NCBI GenBank assembly: GCA_026981635.1
Contig: JALSIF010000302.1
Location: 1-8,723, forward strand
Direction: 5' to 3'
DNA: 8,723 nucleotides
Source of the DNA: JALSIF01 sp026981635 [NCBI: bacterium]
GTDB lineage: Bacteria > 4484-113 > JALSIF01
Positions 2,082 to 7,358 of the stretch are shown one piece after another; the first letter of the stretch is position 1, and each line of letters opens with the position of its first letter. Both the position numbers and the translations under genes were made by a program. Below the pieces are notes generated by a model. The model had not been told where the DNA came from, searched no databases, and saw only the letters and a list, made by a program, of their open reading frames with translations.

Positions 2082-3506
2082 CTAGCCTCTGCCGGAGCCA
2101 AGCAGGTAGCCTCTCATCCACTCGGCAAGCCCCACACCTCCCAGGTCATAGGGGCCGTTGGGACCAACTACGGTGTAGACCCCGCTTATCTGGTCAATCA
2201 CCACCAGGGCGAAGTCGTCCTGGTAGTAGTCGCTGCGGGAGAGGGCCACATAGACCATGTAGGTCATGTGGTCAATGTCCATCAGGTAGTTTTCCAGCTG
2301 CTCGCGGCCGCGGGGCATCACATCAGCCCAGGGATCCCGCTCACGCGCACCCGAGCGTCCCCGGCTGGGCTGGCGCAGGGGATCAAATCTCAGCGCCACC
2401 ACCTCCGGCTCAAGCTGATCCAGGGCCCGCATAAAGGCCACCTTGATGAAGTTGTTGCCCAGGTTCTTTACTCCCCGCTCGCGGGTAAGCAGGAAGTGGG
2501 CCAGGTTGACGGTGGCAGGGTCGTGATAAAGCTCCGGCAAACCCAGCTCATCGGGACTCACCTCCACGGTGGACTCGGTAATGCGGTCCTGCTGGATGGC
2601 CTGGGCAAATCTCTCCGCCTTTCCCGAGCGGTGGATGGCCTCCCGCAAGGGGTCCACGTCAAACCGCTCGGCCCCGGGGATGGGCGGGAGTCCCTCCCCC
2701 GCCCTGATGCTCAGCACCTTGCGGGGTGGGCGGCCAAGCTTCTCGCGGTAGTCCTCAAACAGGTTGCCGATGAGGCTGGCCTGGTCGGACCCCGTGGGGA
2801 GGGGATATACCCTGCCCTGGGCGAACTTGGTGGTGAAGGGAGCAAGATCATCACTGCCCAGGGTGCGGCCCACAAAGGGAGTGAGGGCGGGGCTACTTCC
2901 CCACTCCACCACCACCAGCCTGGGCCCCTGGATGCGGTCGCGGGAGGCAAGCTCCTCCACCTGCCGGCTGAATATCCACACCATCTGAACCGGGTCGGGC
3001 ATGATGTCGGGCGGCATCGCCCCCTGCTCCATCAGCCAGCTGGTGAAGTCCTCCGAATAGGCGGACACCACCGCGGGGTCAAGCTTTCTCAGGTTGGCAA
3101 GCAGGGAGCGGAGAGCATTGCGGTCATTCTCGGTGATCTCCTCCCACTGCTCCACGGTGCGCACCAGGGCATACTTCATGGCGTCGTCCAGTGGCTCAAT
3201 GTAGGGCTCGGACTGGACCACCAGCAGCCGGTCGTCCAGGTAGAGCCGCCTTATCCACTCCCTCAGGTGGCGCTCTATGCGGCGGCTCTCCTCCTCAATG
3301 GTGGGCGAGGGAAGCGGCCCCATCCTGAGCTCCAGCTTCTCCCTATACCAGATGGCGTCGGAGGTATCCACCTGGGCCGCTTCTGCTACCAGGGCAGACA
3401 GCCCTGGCTTTTCCTTCTGAATGGCCAGGAAGGCCACCACCCCCAGGGCAAGCAGCGTTACGGCAAGCCCGAAGATCCAGCGCGGTCCTCTTCCCAGTCG
3501 GGTCAT
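2082..3506 (-). CDS. Membrane-anchored protein of unknown family (474 aa)
   Basis: I do not recognise this family. The N terminus is short and basic (R3, R6, R9), followed by one hydrophobic segment at about residues 11-29 with no clear cleavage site, so it is likely a single-span inner-membrane protein with a large extracytoplasmic domain. The rest is soluble and charged. Residues 71-90 are helix-like and rich in Arg and Glu; residues 196-215 hold a hydrophobic strand (PRLVVVEW) then small residues. A flexible basic stretch (RQPSRGRSGARER, 378-390) precedes a C-terminal part with many Tyr and Asp and a strand-like FALVVIDQISGVYTVVG (432-448). There is a strong ribosome binding site. It starts 53 bases after the stop of the Tat-exported phosphatase-fold gene, so the two are probably co-transcribed and both act outside the cytoplasm. 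Being a real gene is well supported by the ribosome binding site, tight packing and protein-like composition; function is unknown. Confidence 0.85.
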   Translation of the reverse strand: MTRLGRGPRWIFGLAVTLLALGVVAFLAIQKEKPGLSALVAEAAQVDTSDAIWYREKLELRMGPLPSPTIEEESRRIERHLREWIRRLYLDDRLLVVQSEPYIEPLDDAMKYALVRTVEQWEEITENDRNALRSLLANLRKLDPAVVSAYSEDFTSWLMEQGAMPPDIMPDPVQMVWIFSRQVEELASRDRIQGPRLVVVEWGSSPALTPFVGRTLGSDDLAPFTTKFAQGRVYPLPTGSDQASLIGNLFEDYREKLGRPPRKVLSIRAGEGLPPIPGAERFDVDPLREAIHRSGKAERFAQAIQQDRITESTVEVSPDELGLPELYHDPATVNLAHFLLTRERGVKNLGNNFIKVAFMRALDQLEPEVVALRFDPLRQPSRGRSGARERDPWADVMPRGREQLENYLMDIDHMTYMVYVALSRSDYYQDDFALVVIDQISGVYTVVGPNGPYDLGGVGLAEWMRGYLLGSGRG

Positions 3507-3559: not shown

Positions 3560-4753
3560 CTAGAGATACTCGGCCAGCACCTTCCCCTTGGCGGTGGGAA
3601 GCTCTATCCCCAGCAGGTGGGCGATGGTGGGAGCAACGTCAATGTGCTGCACCTCCCGCTCAATCACCACCCCCGGCCTGGTCTCCGGTCCCACGATGAG
3701 CATCCCGCAGTGGCGGGTGCCCTCGTCGCCCAGGCTGTGGTGCTGGAAGCCGTTGGCCACCCAGTCAAGGTTGCGCCCACACTCTGGCAGCACCAGCAGG
3801 GTGGTCTTGCCCTGATATTGGGGCAGGTTCTGGATCGCCTCCCAGATCAGACGCAGGTTCTCGTCGGTGTCGCGAATGGCTCTGACATAAAGGGACCAGT
3901 AGCCCTGGTGGGCCACATCCGGAGCGGCCAGGTTCACGTGGAGGATCTCGGGGGCAAACTTCTGCATCGCCTCAATGGCCAGGGCCACGTTGGCGCGGTC
4001 GCGGCCTGCCGCCTGGCGCACCTTGCTGCGGTCAAGGCTGAGCAGGAAGCGCCTAAGCTCCGGATCCAGGCTCTCCACCATCTCCACTGCCCGGTCCACC
4101 CGCTCCTGGTAGAGGCGGCGGGTGCGCGGATCGCGGTTTACCTCCTTGACGTAGCGATTAAGCTGGGCTTCCACCAGCTTCCTCACATCCTGCTCGGGCT
4201 GCTTCTCCAGCTCGTAGAGCACCTCCCGAAGGACCGGGTTGGCGGCCAGGTCTCCCCACACATTGGCCGCCGCGAAGCGGTCACCGTAGTCGGGGCTGGA
4301 GGAGCGGTTGATGGGGGCGAAGTTTGCCCCCTGGGGGATGAGCCAGGTGGATGTCTTGGGGGCGTCCTTCTGGCGGCGGAAGGCCTCAAAGATGGTGGGG
4401 GCGGGGGGAGGCTTGTAGGAGAAGTCCTCCAGCATGATCCAGTTTCCGGTAAGGATATTGGAGGTTCCCGCCACATGGTGAGTGAGCCCCCGGTTCCATA
4501 GCTCCCGATACATCATCCCCCGCTTGACCAGCTCGCGCAGGAAGGGGGTGTAGCGGTAGCTCGGATCGCCAAACAGCTCGCTGAAGCGGGTGGCACCACC
4601 AAACTGGACCACCACCACCTTCTGGGTGCGGTGGGAAAGGCCCTTGACAAAAGCCGGACCGGCCAGGGCGGAGGTAAGAGGGGAGGAGGCCAGCGCTCCC
4701 CCCAGCGCTCCCGCTCCCAGCCCACGGAGGAAATCACGCCTGCTAACCTTCAT
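3560..4753 (-). CDS. Tat-exported alkaline phosphatase/sulfatase-fold protein
   Basis: A 397-residue protein. The N terminus MKVSRRDFLRG is a textbook twin-arginine signal (S-R-R-x-F-L), followed by a Gly/Ala-rich hydrophobic stretch to about residue 32 (SALAGPA, likely cleavage), so it is exported folded, probably with metal already bound. The body resembles the alkaline phosphatase superfamily (sulfatases, phosphodiesterases): an early strand KVVVVQFGG (45-53), TSNILTG (97-103) where the nucleophile region lies, a PDVAHQG metal motif (D279, H282), D297, an LPECGR block (E324) where many relatives have DHG, histidines at 338-339 and 348, and the closing HIDVAPTIAHLLGIELP (370-386). Several canonical residues differ (FGG for the first metal Asp, ECG for DHG), so activity is uncertain. 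Substrate unknown. It starts 139 bases after csoR and precedes the 474-residue protein. The start codon lies in a strong hairpin. Confidence 0.8.
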   Translation of the reverse strand: MKVSRRDFLRGLGAGALGGALASSPLTSALAGPAFVKGLSHRTQKVVVVQFGGATRFSELFGDPSYRYTPFLRELVKRGMMYRELWNRGLTHHVAGTSNILTGNWIMLEDFSYKPPPAPTIFEAFRRQKDAPKTSTWLIPQGANFAPINRSSSPDYGDRFAAANVWGDLAANPVLREVLYELEKQPEQDVRKLVEAQLNRYVKEVNRDPRTRRLYQERVDRAVEMVESLDPELRRFLLSLDRSKVRQAAGRDRANVALAIEAMQKFAPEILHVNLAAPDVAHQGYWSLYVRAIRDTDENLRLIWEAIQNLPQYQGKTTLLVLPECGRNLDWVANGFQHHSLGDEGTRHCGMLIVGPETRPGVVIEREVQHIDVAPTIAHLLGIELPTAKGKVLAEYL

Positions 4754-4892: not shown

Positions 4893-5174
4893 CTAATCGT
4901 TTAGCGCCCGCTCAAAGGTGTCTACCAGCTCGGCTATTACCTCTTCTGCCTTGTACTCATCAGGGCTGGTCATCGCCTCCTTGACACAGGTGCGCAGGTG
5001 GTCCTCAAGTATGATGGAACTGATCCGGTTGATGGCGTTTCTGGCCGCTATCAGCTGATTGACGATGTCAATGCAGTAGTCACCCCGCTCAATCATCACC
5101 TCTACGCCCCTGAGCTGACCCTGAGCACGAGCCAGGCGATTCTTCAGCCGGCGCTTAAGTTCGTCACTCAGCAT
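4893..5174 (-). CDS. csoR: CsoR/FrmR-family metal-sensing transcriptional repressor, copper type
   Basis: A 93-residue all-helical protein of the CsoR/RcnR/FrmR (DUF156) family, DNA-binding tetramers that leave the operator on binding metal or reacting with a ligand. Family marks are the basic first helix with LKRRLKNRLARAQGQLRG (residues 6-23), GDYCIDIVNQLIAARNAI (31-48) and the ILEDHLRTCV block (55-64). The sensing residues are C34, H59 and C63, the Cys-His-Cys set of Cu(I)-responsive CsoR; nickel/cobalt RcnR, formaldehyde FrmR and persulfide CstR differ at these sites. Length is typical. No copper ATPase, chaperone or oxidase is next to it, so its regulon is not shown here; targets may be distant, or the downstream Tat-exported gene may be one. 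The start at 5174 is preceded by a -10-like TAGAAT at seven bases and no Shine-Dalgarno. Family is certain, copper specificity likely. Confidence 0.93.
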   Translation of the reverse strand: MLSDELKRRLKNRLARAQGQLRGVEVMIERGDYCIDIVNQLIAARNAINRISSIILEDHLRTCVKEAMTSPDEYKAEEVIAELVDTFERALND

Positions 5175-5187: not shown

Positions 5188-5210
5188 CCCTGAGAGAGCT
5201 GGGGAGAGCT

Positions 5211-5238
5211 TAACCCCTATAAGCCCAGAGAGGGGTAA
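5211..5238. promoter_or_regulatory. Imperfect inverted repeat between csoR and the tRNA gene, possible CsoR operator
   Basis: TAACCCCT (5211-5218) and AGGGGTAA (5231-5238) are complementary at seven of eight positions, separated by 12 bases. C-tract/G-tract dyads ending in TA are typical of CsoR operators, and the site lies about 37 bases upstream of the csoR start. The centre is longer than in the operators I know, and the same bases abut the presumed tRNA promoter, so the assignment is tentative. Confidence 0.3.
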
Positions 5239-5244
5239 TAAAAT
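5239..5244 (+). promoter_or_regulatory. Possible -10 element of the tRNA-Arg gene
   Basis: TAAAAT (five of six matches) ends 13 bases before the first base of the mature tRNA. No good -35 is visible at the expected distance, so this is a weak call. Confidence 0.35.
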
Positions 5245-5257
5245 CAGATAGATAGCT

Positions 5258-5334
5258 GCCCCCGTAGCTCAAACGGATAGAGCAGCGGCCTTCTAAGCCG
5301 TTGGTTGCAGGTTCGAGTCCTGCCGGGGGCACCA
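5258..5334 (+). tRNA. tRNA-Arg, anticodon UCU (reads AGA, possibly AGG)
   Basis: A full cloverleaf can be drawn by hand. Acceptor GCCCCCG (5258-5264) pairs with CGGGGGC (5324-5330). The D stem is GCTC/GAGC (5267-5270, 5280-5283). The anticodon stem GCGGC/GCCGT (5285-5289, 5297-5301, with one G-U) holds the loop CTTCTAA and anticodon TCT (5292-5294). The variable loop has 5 bases. The T stem GCAGG/CCTGC (5307-5311, 5319-5323) has loop TTCGAGT. The discriminator is A5331 and the CCA end is encoded (5332-5334). No intron or mismatch stands out. UCU makes it tRNA-Arg for AGA codons, which are rare in the GC-rich genes here. It stands alone between divergent protein genes. Confidence 0.97.
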
Positions 5335-5369
5335 CCTCCCAATCTGGCTGAAATTGCCTTGGAGCAGGC

Positions 5370-5428
5370 AAAAAAAGAACCACCGGGCTCGGGATGAGAG
5401 CAGATCGCTATATCTCTGCCCGGTGGTC
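5370..5428 (-). terminator. Intrinsic terminator of the minus-strand small RNA
   Basis: On the minus strand ACCACCGGGC (5427-5418) pairs perfectly with GCCCGGTGGT (5388-5379), a 10-bp GC-rich stem extendable by one G-U pair. Two bases then lead into seven T residues (5376-5370). The 29-base apical part can form a small GCAGA/TCTGC stem. It stops transcripts 36 bases before they would run antisense into the tRNA. Confidence 0.85.
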
Positions 5429-5503
5429 GGTCGGTCCGGGGTTCTACCCGCCTGGGCGTGCTACTGGGACTTGGCCTCTCGGCCCGGGTGCCCCAGTCCG
5501 ACG
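5370..5503 (-). ncRNA. Candidate structured small RNA, about 134 nt, family not recognised
   Basis: The interval is bounded by a perfect consensus promoter and a strong intrinsic terminator on the minus strand and has no convincing ORF. The 5' domain folds by hand into coaxial stems: GUCGG (5502-5498) with CCGAC (5434-5430), a 3x3 internal loop, GGGG (5494-5491) with CCCC (5441-5438), ACCCG (5489-5485) with CGGGU (5450-5446), and inside them GGCC-GAGA-GGCC (5484-5473), a GNRA-capped hairpin. About 22 bases (5472-5451) stay single-stranded and could alternatively form ACUGGG/CCCAGU with 5497-5492. The 3' domain is the terminator hairpin. It lacks the SRP RNA tip sequence, is too short for RNase P RNA or tmRNA, and does not show the 6S layout I would expect. 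A cis-riboswitch is unlikely because the next minus-strand gene (csoR) lies beyond the antisense of the tRNA. The exact 5' end is inferred as about seven bases after the -10. Confidence 0.7.
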
Positions 5504-5509
5504 CAGATG

Positions 5510-5537
5510 ATTATACCCATTTGACCCACCCTGTCAA
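5510..5537 (-). promoter_or_regulatory. Perfect sigma70-type promoter of the small RNA
   Basis: On the minus strand TTGACA (5537-5532), a 16-base spacer and TATAAT (5515-5510) match the housekeeping consensus at all 12 positions. It is by far the strongest promoter in the window and drives transcription leftward into 5503-5370. Confidence 0.88.
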
Positions 5538-5546
5538 GCTTTTTTT
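5521..5546 (+). terminator. Dyad overlapping the -35 of the small RNA; weak plus-strand terminator
   Basis: TTGAC (5521-5525) and GTCAA (5533-5537) form a 5-bp stem with a 7-base loop, followed on the plus strand by GC and seven T residues (5540-5546). This could end plus-strand transcription coming from the tRNA before the downstream operon. The same dyad covers the -35 and spacer of the minus-strand promoter and might be a repressor site. The stem is short and AT-rich, so either role is tentative. Confidence 0.35.
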
Positions 5547-5610
5547 CAAAAATTGGGTCTCTTACCCCGCCCCTTACCCCAAGTATGGAACCTAACTCCC
5601 CAACCGGGAG

Positions 5611-5622: not shown

Positions 5623-6501
5623 ATGGGAAGGTCCATTCTGCCTAAGGCTCCTGCCACCTTTATCCCCGTTCTCCTCCTCGTTGCCCTGCTCACTTCACCT
5701 ACCCCCAGCTACGGTCAGGGGAAGCTCATCAAGGTCATCTACGGCCCCGAGTTTTCCTCCATGAAGCTGGCCCTGCCCACCGGAAGTCCGGTTGAACTGG
5801 CCGGTGGCTTTAAGGGGTTTCTGGTTACTCCCAAGGAGTCGGGAGAGGAAGTACCGCTTCTGGTGCTGCTTCACGAACATGGCGGACGGGGCGACACCTT
5901 TGCCAGCATAAGCCGCTATGTAAAGATCAAGTCCGCCTACATCCTCTCCATCCAGGGCCGCTTCAGGGCGGTCACCCCGGAGGGGGAGAAGATGGACGGC
6001 TACTCCTGGTGGGAGCTTGGCCCAGACAGCACTGAGCAGAGTCAGCACGACTCCCTGGTCAGGGAAAGCCAGGCACTGGATGAGGCCATCCAGCAGTTCC
6101 TCCACAGCCAGCCCACCATTGACCCCAACAAGGTGGTTCTGATTGGCTTCGCCCAGGGATCCAGGATGGCCCAGGAACTGGCCGGTCGCTTCCCCAGCCA
6201 CTATGCCGGGGTGGTTCTATTTGGCGGCTACGGTGAGCTGGAGGCTGACTGGAAGAGCAGCCTAAGCCAGACCGGCACCCCGCCCAGCTTTTTCATCTCC
6301 ATTGGGGATGGTGACAAGCACACCCCCCTGGAGCTGGCCAAACAGCTCAAGTCCGACCTGGAAAGTCTGGGAGCCGATGTAATCCTCACCTACGTAAACA
6401 AGACCCACCAGATCATTGCCAGCGAATTTGACCAGATGAACCGCTGGCTCGGCAAGCTACTGGGCTATCCCCTTGTTGGCACTGCGGGCATCTCCTCCTA
6501 G
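5623..6501 (+). CDS. Secreted alpha/beta-hydrolase-fold protein lacking the nucleophile serine
   Basis: A 292-residue protein with a signal peptide (K8, hydrophobic 13-24, likely cleavage after about G31). The mature part resembles the phospholipase/carboxylesterase (acyl-protein thioesterase-like) branch of the alpha/beta hydrolases. VPLLVLLHEHGGRGD (77-91) is the oxyanion-loop strand, NKVVLIGFAQGSRMA (169-183) the nucleophile elbow, VVLFGGYGE (197-205) the next strand, ISIGDGDKHTP (225-235) the acid-loop region with D231, and KTHQI (260-264) the histidine region with H262. Relatives have G-F-S-Q-G at the elbow; here residue 177 is Ala (GCC at 6151-6153), so ordinary serine hydrolase chemistry should be lost unless S180 stands in. 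The length without the signal is slightly larger than the roughly 220-residue core family. It is the first gene of a plus-strand set with a secreted protein (41-base gap) and a transporter. The fold is well supported; function is open. Confidence 0.85.
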   Translation: MGRSILPKAPATFIPVLLLVALLTSPTPSYGQGKLIKVIYGPEFSSMKLALPTGSPVELAGGFKGFLVTPKESGEEVPLLVLLHEHGGRGDTFASISRYVKIKSAYILSIQGRFRAVTPEGEKMDGYSWWELGPDSTEQSQHDSLVRESQALDEAIQQFLHSQPTIDPNKVVLIGFAQGSRMAQELAGRFPSHYAGVVLFGGYGELEADWKSSLSQTGTPPSFFISIGDGDKHTPLELAKQLKSDLESLGADVILTYVNKTHQIIASEFDQMNRWLGKLLGYPLVGTAGISS

Positions 6502-6529: not shown

Positions 6530-6552
6530 CTCTGCCCGGCTGATGGGCAGAG
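6530..6552 (+). promoter_or_regulatory. Perfect 8-bp inverted repeat enclosing the start codon of the second operon gene
   Basis: CTCTGCCC (6530-6537) and GGGCAGAG (6545-6552) are perfect complements with a 7-base loop GGCTGAT; the AUG (6543-6545) sits at the loop-stem boundary. No Shine-Dalgarno precedes this start. Upstream in the same 41-base gap lies a 10-base palindrome AGGAATTCCT (6504-6513). The hairpin would hinder independent initiation, which suggests translation depends on ribosomes or structure from the upstream cistron. Confidence 0.5.
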
Positions 6553-7358
6553 CCACACCACTGCGATTAGGATCTCCATCGTTTGGGCTGGTTCTCCTCT
6601 CCTCCTTCCTACTCCTTACCCTCTCAGCCCATGCCACCCCCAACCGCTTCCCCCGTCTGCTTGACTACTTCGTTCCCTACCTGGACGACTGGGAGATTGC
6701 CACCTCCCTGCTGGAAGGCAAACCTGAGGAGGGAAAGGCAATCTTTGCCGAGCTATACGAGCGCACCGACCGAGAGGGGGCCCATCTGGTTCTGGCCGAA
6801 CTTGACCTGCTTGGCCGGGTAATGGTGGCGGCAGAGCTTATGGGGAAGGGGGAAATACCCCCCGCCAAGCTTTTTGCCTACCCCCTGAAGGGGGACCTTA
6901 CCAACTCGCTGGGGCTGGTTGAGGTGGAGGTACTGGTGGTGGAAGGAGACCAGAGGCGCTACGAGAAGCGACTGGTCAGTCTGGCCCGCTGCTGGCGGGA
7001 ACTTGACCGCTTCAGGGACAGGCTAGGTCAGGCCCTCATTGGGAGGACGATGCCCCAGGCTGCCCTAGCCATGCTAGAACTCATCGCCTCACCCCCAGGC
7101 TTTCCCGAACTGAGGGGGGAGCTGGTGGAGGAGATGGGGGAAGGGGGAGAGGAGGAGCTCTGGTTAAGAAAGCTCTTTGCTCCCCTGCGCGAGCCCCTGC
7201 TTCTCATCTCAGTCCGGCTAAGCAGCGAGCTCTCCAAGCAGGAGGAAGTGGATGACCAAACCCGCCAACTACTTTCCCGCTTTGCCGAGCTTAGCCTGAA
7301 ACAGGCCCGCCGCTCAGCCATCCCGCTGGCAAGCCTCACCCCACCCGAGGGAGGGTAA
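6543..7358 (+). CDS. Secreted protein of unknown family (271 aa)
   Basis: I do not recognise this family. It has a good signal peptide: basic start (R3, R8), hydrophobic 14-28, SAHA|TP cleavage after about residue 31. The mature chain is rich in Leu and Glu and looks almost entirely helical (for example EIATSLLEGKPEEGKAIFAE, 51-70, then YERTDREGAHLVLAELDLL, 72-90), with a Glu/Gly-rich stretch at about 194-206 and amphipathic C-terminal helices at 215-258. A helical-repeat fold is possible but no repeat unit is clear. One cysteine (C150). The start is preceded by no ribosome binding site and lies in a hairpin; the frame is open further upstream without a better start, and this start gives a proper signal-peptide n-region. 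It lies 41 bases after the hydrolase-fold gene and 15 before the transporter, so it is most likely the middle gene of one operon. It is probably periplasmic or extracellular. Confidence 0.8.
   Translation: MGRATPLRLGSPSFGLVLLSSFLLLTLSAHATPNRFPRLLDYFVPYLDDWEIATSLLEGKPEEGKAIFAELYERTDREGAHLVLAELDLLGRVMVAAELMGKGEIPPAKLFAYPLKGDLTNSLGLVEVEVLVVEGDQRRYEKRLVSLARCWRELDRFRDRLGQALIGRTMPQAALAMLELIASPPGFPELRGELVEEMGEGGEEELWLRKLFAPLREPLLLISVRLSSELSKQEEVDDQTRQLLSRFAELSLKQARRSAIPLASLTPPEGG

Follow-up and report, generated by a model that had tools for sequence, protein, structure and literature searches.

The locus and its neighbours

The window, i.e. the whole stretch of DNA that was analysed, has a length of 8,723 nucleotides and constitutes one contig (JALSIF010000302.1, here C302) of the assembly of JALSIF01 sp026981635. 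This assembly comprises 1.745 Mb in 317 contigs and is 85.08% complete. The block of interest is intergenic; it lies between a gene for tRNA-Arg(TCT) and a hydrolase gene which starts at 5623, and it is present as a single copy in its own genome. Runs of seven T or A occur just twice in the window, one on each side of the block. The features discussed in the following are:

4893-5174, minus strand: csoR-like gene (PF02583), on the same strand as the candidate RNA
5258-5334, plus strand: tRNA-Arg (TCT), convergent neighbour of the candidate RNA
5369-5502, minus strand: candidate small RNA of about 134 nt, delimited by promoter and terminator; start predicted at 5504 or 5502 from the -10 box, 3' end in U7
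5370-5428, minus strand: intrinsic terminator with ten Watson-Crick pairs and one G-U pair (5428-5418 with 5388-5378), a weak inner stem, a C and U7
5430-5502, minus strand: 5' domain (MFE and centroid; z -1.65)
5502-5498 with 5434-5430, minus strand: GUCGG/CCGAC closing stem of the 5' domain (MFE and centroid)
5497-5490 with 5470-5463, minus strand: ACUGGGGC/GUCCCAGU stem of the 5' domain (MFE and centroid)
5484-5473, minus strand: GGCC-GAGA-GGCC hairpin (MFE and centroid)
5453-5462, minus strand: more open linker AGCACGCCCA with unpaired probabilities of about 0.4-0.9; putative pairing site
5510-5515, minus strand: -10 box TATAAT (promoter scan; 16-nt spacer)
5532-5537, minus strand: -35 box TTGACA (promoter scan)
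5540-5554, minus strand: A/T-rich tract (14/15 A/T), possibly with the role of an UP element
5521-5546, plus strand: TTGAC-N7-GTCAA, GC and T7, a weak terminator-like element (fold of 5510-5548: -3.1 kcal/mol, z -2.97, 5/200 shuffles as good)
5623 onward, plus strand: hydrolase gene, divergent from the minus-strand promoter, and the plus-strand genes that continue from it

A first-pass annotation of this DNA placed the RNA opposite to both the flanking tRNA and the flanking operon. This is correct for tRNA-Arg and for the genes from 5623 onward, which are on the plus strand. The annotation did not mention that the csoR-like gene, and further genes on that side of the tRNA, share the minus strand with the candidate RNA.

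Several other features were observed in the surroundings. An inverted repeat, TTAACCCCT ... AGGGGTAA, occupies 5210-5238 in the gap that separates the minus-strand csoR-like gene from the plus-strand tRNA-Arg, at the position where the tRNA-Arg promoter is expected; we take it to resemble a CsoR-type operator. A minus-strand open reading frame of 57 aa (5210-5383) runs antisense through tRNA-Arg and starts inside the 3' arm of the terminator of the candidate RNA. Reading frames antisense to tRNAs are frequently annotated as hypothetical proteins. The csoR-like protein has three more matches in its own genome, which, although small, thus has four metal-sensing repressors of this type. The proteins encoded by 2082-3506 (474 aa) and 6543-7358 (271 aa) had no Pfam match at E ≤ 0.001; the protein encoded by 3560-4753, next to the former, gave TAT-signal and metalloenzyme matches, both under Pfam's cut-off.

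Transcription signals on the minus strand

The promoter TTGACA-16-TATAAT (5537-5510, minus strand) matches the consensus in 12 of 12 positions, as the first-pass annotation had stated. When the window was dinucleotide-shuffled 2000 times, a perfect promoter with a spacing of 16-18 never arose on either strand. The entire assembly contains two perfect promoters, and a control search with the reversed pattern found none. Promoter-like sites with at least 9 of 12 matches are not above chance in the window (one site found against a shuffle mean of 1.2), so that it is the perfection of the promoter and not the number of sites which stands out. The other perfect promoter (L064, 1381-1527) lies upstream of a gene for tRNA-Gly(GCC); its -10 box ends 46 bases before this tRNA, which is directly followed by T7. 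In eight of the nine other stable RNA genes listed, the best promoter-like site reached only 6-9 of 12 positions. The stable RNAs of this genome thus do not normally have a perfect promoter.

Directly upstream of the -35 box lies the A/T-rich tract 5540-5554. No other 15-mer of the window reaches 14 A/T, by a test which was chosen after an 18-mer test and fitted to this tract; 18-mers with at least 16 A/T do not occur in the window. With an RNA start at 5502 the tract spans about -38 to -52. UP elements are located between -40 and -60, according to a published study (PMC10911233), and the predicted tract would fall partly inside this zone. The same study reports that expression in vivo is highest when one of the two promoter boxes departs from the exact consensus, and that a perfect match to the consensus can impede promoter escape (PMC10911233). 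The argument for strong expression from a perfect promoter is weakened by the former statement and by the low scores of the other stable RNA genes.

The terminator at the other end of the block agrees with what had been described from the sequence, namely a 10-bp stem followed by seven Ts. A strict scan, which required a stem of at least 10 pairs with G-U allowed, a loop of at most 35 and at least six T, found such a terminator in only 3 of 300 shuffled windows. The minus-strand fold of the terminator has a z of -4.0 to -4.1, and none of 200 shuffles was as good. A simpler scan with a loop of 3-8 recovered only a 5-pair stem at this position; over the whole window it counted 13 terminator-like sites where 6.5 were expected. 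The terminator stops 35 bp short of tRNA-Arg, before an antisense overlap would begin. Runs of T6 or T7 also follow the genes for SRP RNA, tRNA-Gly and tRNA-Arg(CCG), i.e. three of the nine other stable RNA genes listed; the candidate RNA makes it four out of ten.

The promoter, its spacing and the terminator together make it likely that the block is an independent transcription unit on the minus strand. From these signals it is also plausible that the candidate RNA is strongly expressed.

Fold, family and relatives of the candidate RNA

The candidate RNA offers no usable reading frame: it contains no ATG, and a GTG only at nucleotide 120 and a TTG only at nucleotide 132 are both too close to the 3' end. 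On the minus strand the whole block folds with an MFE of -59.7 (z -2.84), and 2 of 200 shuffles were as good. The bulk of this signal comes from the terminator; the 5' domain alone is weakly significant, with 14 of 200 shuffles as good. The GGCC-GAGA-GGCC hairpin noted earlier is present in both the MFE and the centroid structure. The situation is different for a stretch of 22 bases (5472-5451), which the first-pass annotation considered single-stranded and a natural candidate for target pairing. In the MFE and centroid structures 8 of these 22 bases, nucleotides 33-40 of the RNA, pair with nucleotides 6-13, and their unpaired probability is 0.3-0.4. The predicted fold lends no support to target pairing through the full stretch. 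According to the model the part from about 5462 to 5453 is more open, and this linker would be the better candidate for a seed.

We compared the block with known RNA families. A search of the whole window against Rfam 15 gave no match in the block. With the block itself and E ≤ 10 it gave two chance matches only, to HepC_CRE (E 0.25, 12.8 bits, cut-off 140) and to sR7 (E 7), and among these Rfam 15 results there was no match to a riboswitch or known aptamer family. The earlier view of an independent RNA which matches no known family is supported by the sequence signals, with Rfam 15 as the reference. The suggestion that it could be 6S-like does not. The genome encodes a 6S RNA above the Rfam cut-off elsewhere (C2:5464-5622; 51.1 bits, cut-off 46.4), as well as a small SRP RNA (C158:7989-8084; 57.1 bits, cut-off 40). 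The covariance models for 6S RNA (RF00013) and bacterial small SRP RNA (RF00169) found no match in the block at E ≤ 10. It is ruled out that the candidate RNA is the sole copy of either, because both are encoded elsewhere and neither matches the block.

The genomes available for comparison were nine of the same class and then others of the domain; none was of the same order, family or genus. A blastn search of 60 genomes including its own returned matches at E ≤ 1 in 34 of them (33 of the 59 others). Those in other genomes were short: the best had an E of 0.008 and spanned 42 bases, and no match covered the full length of the block. A covariance model (R1) was built from the single candidate sequence given twice. 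It found only its own locus in 192 and then in 385 genomes including its own (the two sets probably overlap), in runs with stricter filters which scored only part of the first-look candidates and can miss weak relatives. The search for the same block in other genomes which the first-pass annotation had envisaged was thus without result for blastn (60 genomes) and for R1 (385 genomes), the nearest being of the same class only. Because no comparison genome was closer than this, the missing relatives do not refute conservation or covariation. The absence of relatives fits a lineage-specific RNA, with comparison genomes no closer than the class.

On a set of 16 loci R1 gave six matches at E ≤ 10; the best one (14.1 bits, E 0.16) was in a viral contig (L063), away from its shared 17-mer. 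The neighbouring proteins were used as well: the hydrolase had five distant matches in three other genomes of the class, the CsoR-like protein had two matches in two, and a scan of the genome contigs with the CsoR-like protein gave six loci. With filters off, R1 produced 37 matches at E ≤ 10 (best E 0.25) in 13 loci of the class, which include seven loci of hydrolase or CsoR-like matches (five and two). One R1 match on the minus strand of L032 (1643-1790, E 0.79), beside a tRNA-Arg(TCT), lies inside a same-strand open reading frame of 293 aa (1584-2465) and was set aside as chance. The 400 bases downstream of tRNA-Arg(TCT), available from six of the nine class relatives, showed a best minus-strand promoter of 8 or 9 out of 12, and T6 runs were absent from both strands. 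Plasmid and phage collections contained no match to the block. When the tRNA was included, the plasmid search returned 196 records; among the 20 listed the match was in the tRNA part.

Hfq (PF17209) was found in none of 10 genomes of the class, including the candidate's own, which is 85% complete; 5 of 14 control genomes had a match. This speaks against the best-known mode of action of trans-acting sRNAs. Pairing of the candidate RNA with the start regions of eight genes in the window did not beat shuffles in any case (65 to 292 of 300 shuffles as good). The energy of a whole-length duplex with tRNA-Arg was matched by only 4 of 300 shuffles. We do not claim pairing with tRNA-Arg: in local alignment a complement to the D-arm region (11 matches, one gap) was equalled in 153 of 1000 shuffles, and the RNA itself against the tRNA in 394 of 1000.

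Competing explanations and comparison with known RNAs

The same DNA can be read from the other side. The tRNA-Arg transcript could have a structured 3' trailer on the plus strand, which comprises the long hairpin, a second folded domain and an end formed by the weak TTGAC/GTCAA hairpin with its T7; in that case the minus-strand promoter may be there by chance or may serve a short antisense RNA. The block is stable on both strands and more so on the plus strand (MFE -67.0, z -3.90, 0/200 shuffles as good). The difference is clear in the hairpin region 5377-5428, with a z of -5.56 (0/200 shuffles) on the plus against -4.10 on the minus strand; the number of G-U pairs, 5 versus 2, was also counted in favour of the plus strand. 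The fact that the plus copy folds better means that the fold energy does not fix the strand. The strand would be fixed, although imperfectly, by the promoter and by the U-tract after a G+C-rich hairpin, and in a plus-strand trailer this combination would have to be a coincidence. The simpler scan found no terminator-like site on the plus strand between the tRNA and 5546, where a 6-pair hairpin followed by T7 (5521-5546) is available; the palindrome TTGAC-N7-GTCAA may be the stem of a plus-strand terminator, and the T7 (5540-5546) lies in the A/T-rich tract. Against this, the end hairpin amounts to only -3.1 kcal/mol, and the stricter scan finds nothing on the plus strand. The second domain is weaker there (z -0.91, 35/200 shuffles) than on the minus strand (z -1.65, 14/200), and the best promoter site upstream of tRNA-Arg has 7 of 12 matches (8 of 12 with a looser rule). 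On balance we regard the trailer as unlikely, while it receives more weight than any other single alternative. The palindrome overlaps the -35 box of the minus-strand promoter, and it was also considered as a repressor site; it occurs in one place in the genome, as does a reversed control pattern, and there is no regulon.

Nearly as much weight, and still little, goes to a remnant that is transcribed but has no function, or to an arrangement that arose by chance. The single copy, the weak 5' fold and the lack of visible conservation among genomes of which the nearest are of the same class would agree with this; the joint rarity of a perfect promoter and a terminator speaks against it. Attenuators usually have a terminator behind a folded 5' domain, as the candidate RNA does. 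In a riboswitch-like leader the 5' domain would sense a signal and the terminator would control read-through into the csoR-like gene (5174-4893), which is on the same strand, and into the genes beyond; an alternative fold that gives up the terminator stem is less favourable by 7.5 kcal/mol. However, when the 5' domain was shuffled, pairing with the terminator arm was as good in 672 of 2000 cases, and the gap was as small in 203 of 300. Furthermore, 195 nt and an antisense tRNA gene separate the terminator from the csoR-like gene, and Rfam offers no riboswitch match. Because the alternative pairing is at shuffle level and the next same-strand gene lies beyond an antisense tRNA gene, an attenuator is improbable. 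We judge it equally improbable that the act of transcription matters and not the RNA. The promoter faces tRNA-Arg and points away from the divergent hydrolase gene at 5623, so that it could fire strongly in this direction with the terminator as insulation; but this terminator would halt the polymerase before the tRNA, and some 134 nt of transcribed DNA would presumably be superfluous. We also considered a two-faced locus, in which a strongly expressed RNA of the minus strand would be antisense over the whole length to a structured 3' trailer of the tRNA-Arg transcript, each with its own T7 end. The small RNA would then control, in this lineage, how tRNA-Arg(TCT) ends, how it is processed or how much of it is supplied; this is very doubtful. 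Least probable of all is a diverged housekeeping RNA: size and strong promoter would suit 6S or SRP RNA, but both have their genes elsewhere and the block resembles neither up to E 10.

About half of our belief goes to a different reading, in which the minus strand of the block carries the gene of a small non-coding RNA (about 134 nt) that is transcribed independently, with a housekeeping-sigma promoter, a UP-like tract and an intrinsic terminator. This RNA would act in trans without Hfq and be lineage-specific. In such a gene the promoter and the UP-like tract would cause constitutive and probably strong minus-strand transcription, and the terminator would end the transcript ahead of tRNA-Arg. 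The function of the RNA is probably regulatory, independent of Hfq and restricted to its lineage. Its mode of action is a guess; base pairing via the open linker 5462-5453 or via the terminator loop, or else binding of a protein, would be most likely. One of the two perfect consensus promoters of the assembly precedes a short RNA without an Rfam family. If expressed, this RNA could be abundant, in a bacterial class that has been poorly sampled, which is a motive to seek its relatives in nearer genomes.

Among known systems, 6S RNA (RF00013) is likewise a promoter-driven, structured RNA of broadly similar size; in contrast to it, the candidate RNA has no match to the family, and the 6S RNA of this genome is elsewhere. 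Leaders of the attenuator and riboswitch type likewise have an intrinsic terminator behind a folded 5' domain. They differ in that the next same-strand gene of the candidate RNA lies beyond an antisense tRNA gene and its antiterminator pairing does not exceed shuffles. Independently transcribed intergenic sRNAs of bacteria differ from the candidate RNA in that it is without detected relatives and belongs to a class in which Hfq was not found. The likeness to them is in the predicted own promoter, the intrinsic terminator, the intergenic position and the lack of a usable reading frame. It is credible from these features that the candidate RNA, which matches no family of Rfam 15, belongs to this known general kind, the independent intergenic sRNAs.
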